Positions 36,562-40,203 of a stretch of 64,000 bases of DNA are shown here, one piece after another. This DNA is from Bacteroidales bacterium (GTDB lineage: Bacteria; Bacteroidota; Bacteroidia; Bacteroidales; P3). Positions within the stretch are counted from its first letter, which is position 1; each line of letters begins with the position of its first letter. The notes beneath the pieces are model-generated. The model saw only the letters and a program-made list of their open reading frames with translations. It searched no databases and had not been told where the DNA came from. The DNA lies in the NCBI GenBank assembly GCA_016280915.1, contig JAEEHQ010000045.1:1-64000 (forward strand), read 5' to 3'. The position numbers and the translations under genes are program-made.

Positions 36562-39500
36562 CTATTTAAACGCATTCTCTGACAGGCCCTTGCCTCCAAT
36601 CTTGAGATCTTCCATGTAGCTGGGCACTTCGCGGCCAAGGTACTTGTCGACATAAAGTTTTGCAAGATACTGGCCCAACATAAAGCCATGACCTCGAAGA
36701 CCTGTGCAGAGACCGACCTCAGGGTCAACGATATAGCGAGGCTCAGTATAACGGCCAGCCCATACAGCCAAAAAGCCGACTTCACGAAGATTGGGAATCC
36801 ATTCAGCAAAGACCTCAGAAACTATTTCTAAGAATTCCTTACTATTATACTTAATGTTCTGTCGAGCCTCATAAGCATCCGTGGCAGGACTGGCACAACC
36901 TATAATCTGTCCGGTGTGTCCCCATTGCTGGCCATATACAGCACTGAAGCCTTTGTAATGGCGGCGGTCGATGACCATATCCAATGGCCCCCCATTGGGG
37001 CCCATCATAGGCAGACGACGGGTGATGAAGGCCTGATGCTTGACAGGATAAAGACCCGTGTCAAGGCCGAGTTGGTCGATAAACTTTTCAGCTCCCCAAC
37101 CCATGGCATTGACAAAATGGTCGCAAGTATACTCAATGTAATGGCCCTCGTGATTGCGAACCAAGGCGACATAGTGTCCACCAATTTTTTGAACATGAAG
37201 CAACTCACAATCCTCATAATAGCGTCCACCTAATTGTACGCCAATACCACGTATGTAGTCGATGACACGGCCAGGTGTTGCCTGCCAACAATCGCGGGTG
37301 ATTAAGGCATGGCTATAGGTATCTTTGGTGTCATCCCACAATGGAGAGATCTCTTTTTTGAAATCTTTTCTCTCAATCATATAGGCATCACTCCAAGCAC
37401 GAGAGGCATCGAGTGACCGATAGGTGGCATCATCATGAACCAGATTGACATAGTGTGTGAGATGGTAGTTGATATTGTGCACTTTCTGCATCTCCTTGAA
37501 AATCTCGTGGTTGTGAACAGCTATATCGGCTATGTCGGGATTGGAGAATGCCGGTCGTCCTCCACCAATGCAACGCCACGAAGCTCCGCGGCTGTAGTTG
37601 ATCATGACGGGTTTCTTGCCGGCCTCGGCAAAATAGCGGAAAAGTGCACTTCCAGCAATTCCTCCACCTGCAATAAGAATAGCGATATGTTCCTTTTGCA
37701 CGTCGTTCATCTTGGGGAAGATAAAGACCTCACGCGACTGGCTGTTATAGAGATCGCCTATGGTTACCTGATTGGAGAGTGGGGCACGAGGTGTGGCATC
37801 TCCAACCAATTCAACTCCATAGCTACGCAGAATTTGTCGAGCACGTGGGATACAACGTTTGCCACGACAAGGGCCCATACCCAAACGGGTGATGTGCTTG
37901 AGTTCATCAACCGAGATGGTTTTACGGTCGCCCAAGACCTGTAGGACCGTGTCGAGTTTGATATCTTCGCAATGGCAGACGTATGTCTCAGCAGGGTCTT
38001 TGATTTCGACCAATGGCTTAAGTTTCAGAGGTTCAGGATACCCCGCCTTGGTAATAAAGCCCTTGATGTTAGTCATCACACCTTGATGGGAAAGGACTTT
38101 TACTCGTGCCACATGGGTTTTGTTTGGCTTATGGAGAATCTTTTCTACCAACCCCTCTCCTACTTTCTGACCATTGTTGTCGACCAAGAAGACTTCAACT
38201 CCATCAGGCACCTCATACTCAATGGGCAGGAAGACGAACTGCTTGTTCATATCATAGCCAAAGATTGCCAAGCCTGGGCAATTAGAAACACACTGCATGC
38301 AACCTATGCATTTGTCGTAATCAATTGTGGGTGTGCTGGAGGTTGTTGGCTTGCTGATGGCTCCTTGCGGACAAGAGAAACTACACGGGTTGCAGGCAAA
38401 ACCATAGAGACAGTCGGCCTGAACGAAAGGTTTCATCTTCATACGCTCTTCGGTAGGCAGATTGGGCTTCTCCAAGATTCGGACAGGATGCTGCTGTGAG
38501 TCAATATACTGGCGAGAGATATCGAGATACTCATCATAATTATAACGTATTCCTAAGGCCTGCGCTACCTCATAAGCAGCCTGGCGTCCACGTAGGACTG
38601 CACTAGTGCCTTCGCCAATACGGATGGCATCACCAACACCATAAGTGTTGTGTCCGAAAACCTCACGCCCCTTAACAAGCAACTGATTGTCAGGTATTAA
38701 GCCTGTACAAATATTGATAATATCTATATCGTCGATAATCTGTTCTGTGCCAGGAATGGCCTTGAAATTCTCACATTTGGCAATCACGGCTCCAGTTATT
38801 CCTGTATGGTCGGCATTAGGAATGGCGCGAACAAGGGTGTAGCCAGTCATGATGGGAATGCCTAAGCGGCGGAGACGATTGGCCTGAACGGGGAAACCTC
38901 CCTCACGTGGCATGGCCTCAATGATAGCCTTGATGGTGGCACCAGCCTGCATACCTTGATAGGAGGTGAGGTAACCAATATTACCAGCACCTACAGTAAG
39001 CACTCGTTTGCCCAACAAGGTGTGTTCTTGATTCATCATCTTCTGGAACACAGCAGCAGTGTATACTCCTGGCACATCGTCGTCGGCGAAGGTGGGCATA
39101 AAGGGGACCGCACCTGTAGCAACCACAAGATGGTCAGCATCGACATAAGAGATTTCTCCCGTGACGATATTCTTGATGGCAACCCGCCGACCTTCAAGTA
39201 AATCCCAAACGGTGTTATTGAGCAAGATTCCTTCGTGGTTATCACCTGCCAAAGTCTTGGCAATATCAAAACCACGCATGCCACCAAAACGTTTCTCTTT
39301 TTCAAAGAAGAAGAACTGATGGGTCTGCATGTTAAACTGGCCACCTATGCGGCTGTTGTTGTCAATTACCAAATTGTCTATTCCAAAGGCATTGAGTTGT
39401 TCACGACATGCCAAACCCGCAGGACCAGCACCAATGATAGCCACCTGCGTTTTAAATATTTTAACTTCACGTGGAAGCTCTGTACGAACTTCGGGAATCT

Positions 39501-39795
39501 CGTAGACACTGGTATCGACATGGTGCACCTCTTTGACGTTATCAACCAATGTGACGCAGATTCTTTTAACCTGCCCATCAACAATCATTTCGCATGCGCC
39601 ACACTTGCCGATACCGCAATTGAGGCTGCGATTGCGACCATTAATACTATGGCTGTGGACGGGGAAGCCGGCCTGATGAAGTGCAGCAGCAATGGTGTAT
39701 CCTTTGCGCCCTTGCACCTTCTGTCCGTCATAGATAAATTCCACTATCTCGCTCTGCGGGATGTCTAAAATAGGGTGTTGCTCAATCTTGTACAT
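36562..39795 (-). CDS. Giant multi-domain flavo-iron-sulfur dehydrogenase (HcnABC-like fusion)
   Basis: 1077 residues, no signal peptide. Modules in order: plant-type 2Fe-2S domain with Cys about 60, 65, 68 and 80 (CGIGKCGACEM...C); FAD/NAD(P) oxidoreductase (VAIIGAGPAGLACRE, VLTVGAGNIGYL); two 4Fe-4S motifs (FACNPCSFSCPQG and CIGCMQCVSNCPG); BFD-like 2Fe-2S domain (CHCEDI...GMGPCRGKRC); and a second FAD domain of the D-amino-acid oxidase fold (ILIAGGGIAGSALF, FSAVYGQQWGHTG). Separate subunits with these folds form hydrogen-cyanide synthase, octopine/nopaline and hydroxyproline dehydrogenases. The likely substrate is an amino acid or imino acid; which one is unknown. It is monocistronic, behind a leader of about 370 bases. 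Confidence 0.85.
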   Translation of the reverse strand: MYKIEQHPILDIPQSEIVEFIYDGQKVQGRKGYTIAAALHQAGFPVHSHSINGRNRSLNCGIGKCGACEMIVDGQVKRICVTLVDNVKEVHHVDTSVYEIPEVRTELPREVKIFKTQVAIIGAGPAGLACREQLNAFGIDNLVIDNNSRIGGQFNMQTHQFFFFEKEKRFGGMRGFDIAKTLAGDNHEGILLNNTVWDLLEGRRVAIKNIVTGEISYVDADHLVVATGAVPFMPTFADDDVPGVYTAAVFQKMMNQEHTLLGKRVLTVGAGNIGYLTSYQGMQAGATIKAIIEAMPREGGFPVQANRLRRLGIPIMTGYTLVRAIPNADHTGITGAVIAKCENFKAIPGTEQIIDDIDIINICTGLIPDNQLLVKGREVFGHNTYGVGDAIRIGEGTSAVLRGRQAAYEVAQALGIRYNYDEYLDISRQYIDSQQHPVRILEKPNLPTEERMKMKPFVQADCLYGFACNPCSFSCPQGAISKPTTSSTPTIDYDKCIGCMQCVSNCPGLAIFGYDMNKQFVFLPIEYEVPDGVEVFLVDNNGQKVGEGLVEKILHKPNKTHVARVKVLSHQGVMTNIKGFITKAGYPEPLKLKPLVEIKDPAETYVCHCEDIKLDTVLQVLGDRKTISVDELKHITRLGMGPCRGKRCIPRARQILRSYGVELVGDATPRAPLSNQVTIGDLYNSQSREVFIFPKMNDVQKEHIAILIAGGGIAGSALFRYFAEAGKKPVMINYSRGASWRCIGGGRPAFSNPDIADIAVHNHEIFKEMQKVHNINYHLTHYVNLVHDDATYRSLDASRAWSDAYMIERKDFKKEISPLWDDTKDTYSHALITRDCWQATPGRVIDYIRGIGVQLGGRYYEDCELLHVQKIGGHYVALVRNHEGHYIEYTCDHFVNAMGWGAEKFIDQLGLDTGLYPVKHQAFITRRLPMMGPNGGPLDMVIDRRHYKGFSAVYGQQWGHTGQIIGCASPATDAYEARQNIKYNSKEFLEIVSEVFAEWIPNLREVGFLAVWAGRYTEPRYIVDPEVGLCTGLRGHGFMLGQYLAKLYVDKYLGREVPSYMEDLKIGGKGLSENAFK

Positions 39796-40172
39796 ATAAG
39801 TGTTTAATGATTGGTTAATAAAGTATTATAGATAATTATGTTGCCTAGCTAGTCTTGAAGGCCCTGATGCTATATTTGACTGATTCTTCAACAGCATCGA
39901 AGATGCTGAATCTTAAAAACGTTGCAAAGTCGAGTGCAAAGGAAGCTTGCTTTCTTTGCCGAAACCTGGCAACGTCTCGTAGAAACCCCATACAAGAAAT
40001 CGTTAGGTTTTGCAGCGTGGGGCCAACGAAAACCCTGCTACTCAGCTTCCCAGAGTGAAGAAAAACTCGGTGACTATCGGAAGTGACACAAAGTGCCAAT
40101 GAGAATAAAAACGGCATTGGACCTATATGGCAAAAATCAGTCATACTTTATACTAGAGCGATTTTGAACTTG
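39796..40172 (-). other. Long leader or small RNA upstream of the oxidoreductase
   Basis: The region between a perfect promoter (40173-40203) and ATG 39795. On the minus strand the 5' part TTGCC..AGGTCC can pair with 3' GGGCCT..GGCAA, closing a fold of about 290 bases; GCATCTTCGATGC makes a clear inner hairpin and CCAATG/CATTGG another. A 99-codon ORF (40144-39845) also spans it, starting MTDFCHIGPMPFLFSLALC, with no family known to me and no signal or domain. It could be a structured RNA, a leader with a small protein, or a decayed repeat. Confidence 0.45.
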
Positions 40173-40203
40173 CAAAAATACATATATTTTTCCAAAGTAC
40201 AAA
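40173..40203 (-). promoter_or_regulatory. Promoter of the oxidoreductase leader
   Basis: Minus-strand TTTG, 19 bases, TATTTTTG: perfect consensus spacing. Transcription would start near 40166. Confidence 0.75.

Follow-up and report, generated by a model that had tools for sequence, protein, structure and literature searches.

Positions 39860 to 40160 of the window, a stretch of 64,000 nucleotides of Bacteroidales DNA, are a MITE of the IS1595 family: the element is short, lacks a transposase, has the terminal inverted repeats (TIRs) and the 8-bp target duplication of that family, is dispersed, and has an empty counterpart in a relative. Our reading of the whole locus, which we hold with a probability of about 80%, is that this MITE inserted behind the promoter of an oxidoreductase gene and that the hairpin cassette in its core is the paired repeat of Y1 tnpA genes of subclass 1.2. 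The insertion itself is ordinary, but the cassette-tnpA system looks like a new one that resembles REP/RAYT. The features of the locus are listed in Table 1.

Table 1. Features at the insertion site and in the adjoining oxidoreductase gene (window positions)
Feature	Positions	Strand	Evidence or remark
FAD/NAD-dependent oxidoreductase, 1077 aa	36562..39795	-	Fer2_4, Pyr_redox_2, Fer4, BFD, and DAO domains; element in its 5' UTR
99-codon ORF, most likely not a gene	39845..40144	-	no Pfam match; spans left end of mobile element
Left copy of decayed 8-bp target duplication, GTCTTGAA	39852..39859		6/8 identical to right copy
MITE, 301 bp, non-autonomous IS1595 type, holds hairpin cassette	39860..40160	+	TIR pair, other copies, empty site in nearest relative (G028)
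Left TIR, GGCCCTGATGCTATATTTGACTGATTCTT	39860..39888	+	fits [CG]GCTCT-N11-TGACTGATTTTT
Cassette hairpin H1, 7-bp stem, GAA triloop	39892..39908	+	covariation in alignments A2 and A3; covariance model match
Additional hairpin module between H1 and H2 (GTTGC...GCAAC, inner GCAAAG...CTTTGC)	39921..39983	+	missing in shortest copies
Cassette hairpin H2, CCCCATAC...GCGTGGGG	39986..40022	+	copy comparison, covariation, covariance model match
Degenerate or extended H3 region (additional module)	40044..40111	+	copy comparison; H3 poorly paired in covariance model alignment
Right TIR, CGCTCTAGTATAAAGTATGACTGATTTTT	40132..40160	-	TIR pattern matched perfectly
Right copy of decayed 8-bp target duplication, ATTTTGAA	40161..40168		empty-site orthologue and duplication scan
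Bacteroidales promoter, TTTG-N19-TATTTTTG	40173..40203	-	native to downstream gene, outside element; matching promoter in insert-free orthologue

Ends, copies, and target duplication of the element

The termini of the MITE are imperfect inverted repeats of 29 nt. When copies were aligned together with their flanks, the edges of the element were sharp and the flanks were unrelated between copies. Seventy-eight TIR-bounded elements were collected from the fetched loci (two are autonomous ISs, and a few possibly overlap or were fetched twice), and the 8-bp duplication was perfect in 36 and at least 7/8 identical in 50 of them; random re-pairing of the ends led to an expectation of 1.4 on average (maximum, 6). 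Perfect duplications of other lengths were found once at 9 bp and never at 6, 7, or 10 bp, and the A+T content of the element flanks was 86%. The duplication of the window copy has decayed to 6/8 identity. A dispersed repeat had been one of the options named by the first-pass annotation, which had also proposed a look for copies elsewhere in the genome; indeed, 24 places in the same genome matched the element, and with the consensus of the shortest copies as the query, full or partial copies were found in 46 of 120 congener genomes. The collections of phages and plasmids gave no match.

The ORFs of the MITE have no Pfam match. The frame of 99 codons pointed out in the first-pass annotation does exist, but it merely crosses the element. 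That annotation had also paired the presumed transcript ends, TTGCC..AGGTCC with GGGCCT..GGCAA. These arms are complementary as claimed, but the pairing is absent from the predicted minimum-energy fold, the spacers are unequal, and one of the arms lies partly outside the element (39841-39845). The true terminal pairing is that of the transposon inverted repeat, 39860-39888 with 40132-40160.

A pre-existing promoter and an empty site

The promoter TTTG-N19-TATTTTTG was found exactly as annotated. It is on the minus strand, with TTTG at 40203-40200 and TATTTTTG at 40180-40173, and is directed at the ORF at 36562-39795. The orthologue in the nearest relative (G028), whose first 150 residues are 95% identical, conserves it: an identical promoter is located 101 nt before the ATG, and the insert is absent. 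The empty site in G028 reads CAAGTTCAAAAA, and its counterpart in the window is CAAGTTCAAAAT plus the element; on the minus strand, the G028 orthologue has TTCAAAAA at the target duplication. In many other congeners, a TTTG...TAnnTTTG promoter starts ~91 nt before the ATG and has its -7 box ~67 nt before it. Since the G028 orthologue has the promoter but no insert, the target of the MITE was an ordinary 5' UTR, and the empty site and the congener promoters together place the insertion 12 nt past the -7 box, behind a promoter that was already there. This promoter predates the MITE and is not part of it. As to the gene product, Fer2, Pyr_redox_2, Fer4, BFD, and a C-terminal DAO domain are fused in one chain, and orthologues with a similar open-frame length are present in most of the congeners searched.

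If transcription proceeds through the element, the insertion would have lengthened the 5' UTR of the gene from roughly 65 to 75 nt to ~365 nt, and most of the new 5' UTR is antisense to the MITE cassette. An effect on gene expression may also have been acquired.

These data bear on the proposal that the region is a metabolite-sensing leader, whether riboswitch or attenuator, evolved for regulation of the oxidoreductase. The transcript of the gene would indeed begin just before the element, and the hairpins noted in the first-pass annotation are real: the minus strand folds better than its shuffles (z = -3.0) and the plus strand weakly so (z = -1.9). However, the nearest orthologue lacks the element and other orthologues have the promoter near the ATG and hence short leaders; copies elsewhere adjoin unrelated sequences with target duplications; and the strand that holds the structure runs antisense to the gene. 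Moreover, no terminator-like site was found inside the element, no Rfam family matched, and the element is not conserved upstream of one gene family in one orientation, as a riboswitch or other cis-regulatory leader would be. Because of the empty site and the pre-existing promoter, a leader evolved for the oxidoreductase is in the main refuted, and we give it practically no credence. The related suggestion of an independent RNA gene found no backing either, since neither an Rfam family nor a promoter of its own was found. The Rfam search of the window returned nothing meaningful, and weak microRNA matches in another locus (L321) are chance matches to hairpins.

An autonomous relative of the IS1595 family

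TIR pairs 1.1 kb apart led to an autonomous IS of 1118 bp in G028, with a matching TIR layout. Its protein of 353 aa matched the IS1595 transposase (NCBIfam NF033547, E value of 2e-54; Pfam DDE_Tnp_IS1595), and two copies of the IS (L172 and L173) have identical protein sequences and intact TIRs. The genome of the window itself encodes the N-terminal part of a 98% identical transposase next to the TIR CACTCTAGTACAATAATGGACTGATTTTT, where it is cut by the contig end. An IS1595 transposase is the putative mover of the MITE. Neither L172 nor L173 is surrounded by an 8-bp target duplication, which counts against our reading.

As in other ISs and MITEs of the IS1595 family, the autonomous and non-autonomous forms have their TIRs in common, the transposase is of the DDE_Tnp_IS1595 type with a zinc ribbon, and the 8-bp target duplications are AT rich. 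In contrast to IS1595 MITEs, the window MITE has nothing of the IS interior, and a hairpin cassette unrelated to it forms the core. No cassette is found inside the autonomous IS1595 copies. The minisatellite-bearing MITE of Porphyromonas gingivalis (PMC4596501) is likewise described as a Bacteroidales MITE with a repetitive interior.

Two other candidates for a parent were discarded. ISL3 had come into view through the GGCTCT ends and the 8-bp duplications, but its local elements do not share the ends of the MITE: within the genus, several copies of ISL3 terminate in GATGAACC. In G059 (L113, L126, L129, and L141), two unrelated interior sequences joined to the right end of the element resembled an autonomous element, but they are apparently other ISs that are nested in element copies near that end.

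Structure of the hairpin cassette

Three hairpins make up the cassette. H1 and H2 are joined by a linker in which AAUAAC is conserved, and a variable spacer of ~24 nt separates H2 from H3. The module inserted between H1 and H2 in the window is present in other copies and also occurs alone elsewhere in the genome. In the window copy, H1 and H2 are intact, but H3 is degenerate and the covariance model score is low (27.7 bits), which counts against our reading.

The first-pass annotation had expected covariation if the structure was genuine, and covariation is indeed strong in the structured cassette. In an alignment of 35 sequences (A2), made by sequence alone from copies most of which had been selected with a pattern that demanded two stems, 97% of the cells in 25 pairs were paired, 12 of the 25 pairs had changed on both sides, and none of 500 shuffles reached the observed covariation. 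An alignment of 133 copies from across the order (A3) had changes on both sides in 24 of 25 pairs and a covariation score of 0.63, where shuffles scored 0.21 and slid controls no more than 0.12; it leans towards the model because it was fitted to it. Among these 133 copies, 98 have a GNA triloop in H1 and 101 have one in H3. Such triloops are characteristic of DNA mini-hairpins of very high stability. The structure of the cassette is truly conserved, which it seems to owe to its role as partner repeat of a transposase that acts on single-stranded DNA.

Many cassettes are found without TIRs of the IS1595 type. At L193 to L196, L200, L203, and L204, the cassette is located between or beside another inverted pair, GATTATCCGCAT / ATGCGGATAATC, which may mark a second MITE family or form an outer stem. 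Tandem arrays of cassettes were seen at L192 and L328 (G058), L193 to L196 (G024), and L324 (G095), with up to ~7 copies upstream of tnpA.

Fixed association of the cassette with Y1 tnpA genes

A search with the covariance model detected the cassette in 26 of 295 Bacteroidales genomes, that is, in 23 of the 184 genera sampled. In two of the fetched loci, a Y1 transposase gene directly adjoined the cassette, and the layout is fixed: cassette, tnpA, inverted cassette. In a scan of 30 loci of the genus, the nearest upstream cassettes within 150 nt were direct in 26 of 26 cases, at a distance of 14 to 46 nt from the ATG, and the downstream cassettes were inverted in 27 of 28. A scan of Y1_Tnp loci in 22 genomes, which has a few loci in common with the 30-locus scan, revealed 13 genes with a cassette on one or both sides, including genes from other families; most of them had a direct cassette upstream and an inverted one downstream. 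The two cassettes of one locus resemble each other. All 13 cassette-bearing Y1 loci of the 22-genome scan encode Y-x-x-x-Q-x-x-HH as their Y motif, and no protein of the Y...NP type in that scan had a cassette. About 10 other proteins with the Y-x-x-x-Q-x-x-HH motif had no cassette detectable with the present covariance model, which counts against our reading.

TnpA-Y1 proteins of subclass 1.2, known from Cyanobacteria and Bacteroidetes, have the motifs DH[IV]H and YIKNQKEHH and a length of ~148 aa (Quentin et al. 2018, PMC6006769). The proteins flanked by the cassette have these motifs, with YIKxQKEHH as their signature, and this length and are assigned to the subclass by motif; one example (L296) has DHVH, YIKGQKEHH, 149 aa, and a Y1_Tnp match of 7e-19. 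They also share the low copy number of the subclass. As published, the HuH proteins of subclass 1.2 are IS200-like yet have neither IS properties nor flanking structures, generally lack terminal secondary structure, and have no REP listed (PMC6006769), whereas a flanking cassette is regular here. A full-text literature search of partial coverage found no description of repeats for the subclass. Since the flanking proteins fit the motifs of subclass 1.2, the partner repeat that had been missing seems to be this cassette.

The genome of the window has a single close Y1 gene of the cassette-flanked type (L290, G000:C68:27875-28312). Its product is 37% identical to that clade, with the motif QYILNQIEHH, and no cassette was found nearby. 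Since this tnpA is only distantly related and has no adjoining cassette, the cassettes of the strain may be relics, with the IS1595 transposase as their sole mover, a point against our reading.

The cassette and the TIRs could instead form one mobile family, the copies beside tnpA being MITE insertions near that gene. The cassette is in fact found within the TIRs in many congeners. However, the many cassettes without such TIRs, the order-wide association with tnpA at fixed spacing and orientation, and the absence of the cassette from the autonomous IS1595 copies argue against a single family, which we regard as highly improbable.

A second alternative is that the cassette acts as a transcribed, structured RNA, for example, by stabilising or terminating transcripts, and that its position next to tnpA reflects regulation of tnpA. 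The covariation and the location just upstream of tnpA are consistent with this, and so is the excess of G-T over A-C pairs on the plus strand (111 versus 42 in the 133 copies and 24 versus 3 in A2). But G-T pairs are also tolerated in single-stranded DNA, the triloops are of a type typical of DNA mini-hairpins, a function in the transcript does not predict that the copy downstream of tnpA is inverted, and at the present locus the cassette runs antisense to the oxidoreductase gene in whose 5' UTR it sits. We consider an RNA role unlikely.

Comparison with REP/RAYT systems

Our preferred reading, a paired repeat of a Y1 transposase, brings the cassette close to the REP/RAYT (TnpA-REP) systems. 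In both, hairpin repeats are dispersed in many copies, and inverted copies flank a low-copy HuH-Y1 gene (PMC6006769), as was found here for the cassette, beside the Y1 gene and elsewhere in the genome. The protein differs: it carries the signature of class 1.2, with Y-x-x-x-Q-x-x-HH in place of the Y-x-x-x-NP motif of class 2. The repeat differs as well, in that the cassette has three hairpins with GNA triloops in about 100 nt, and no GT[AG]G foot tetranucleotide was evident in the cassette alignments and copies inspected by eye. Atypical secondary structures in Bacteroidetes, both next to the gene and at other places in the genome, have been ascribed to subclass 2.6 (RAYT group 5; PMC6006769). 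Membership of the flanking Y1 proteins in that subclass was considered and dropped on the Y motif, which is YIH[QN]NP there.

Proposed history and meaning

In our reading, a MITE of an IS1595-family IS entered the 5' UTR of the oxidoreductase gene just behind the -7 box and duplicated 8 bp of its target. Its core brought along the three-hairpin cassette that elsewhere in the Bacteroidales is the paired terminal repeat of subclass 1.2 Y1 (HuH) genes. The Y1 protein most likely recognises the hairpins as single-stranded DNA and may spread the cassettes in the manner of REP/RAYT, and the MITE would have picked up one cassette as a passenger. More generally, it is fairly probable that subclass 1.2 TnpA-Y1 proteins and the three-hairpin, GNA-loop cassette make up an order-wide mobile system of single-stranded DNA that is distinct from class 2 REP/RAYT and whose cassettes also travel as passengers of DDE MITEs.

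If this is true, the cassette would have two independent routes of spread, and it would offer a specific, testable DNA substrate for the HuH proteins of subclass 1.2, whose substrate had been obscure. It would also account for strongly structured repeats of the Bacteroidales, which might otherwise be misread as riboswitches or small RNAs. The locus itself is an example of how almost all of a gene's 5' UTR can come from a MITE, with the promoter left intact.
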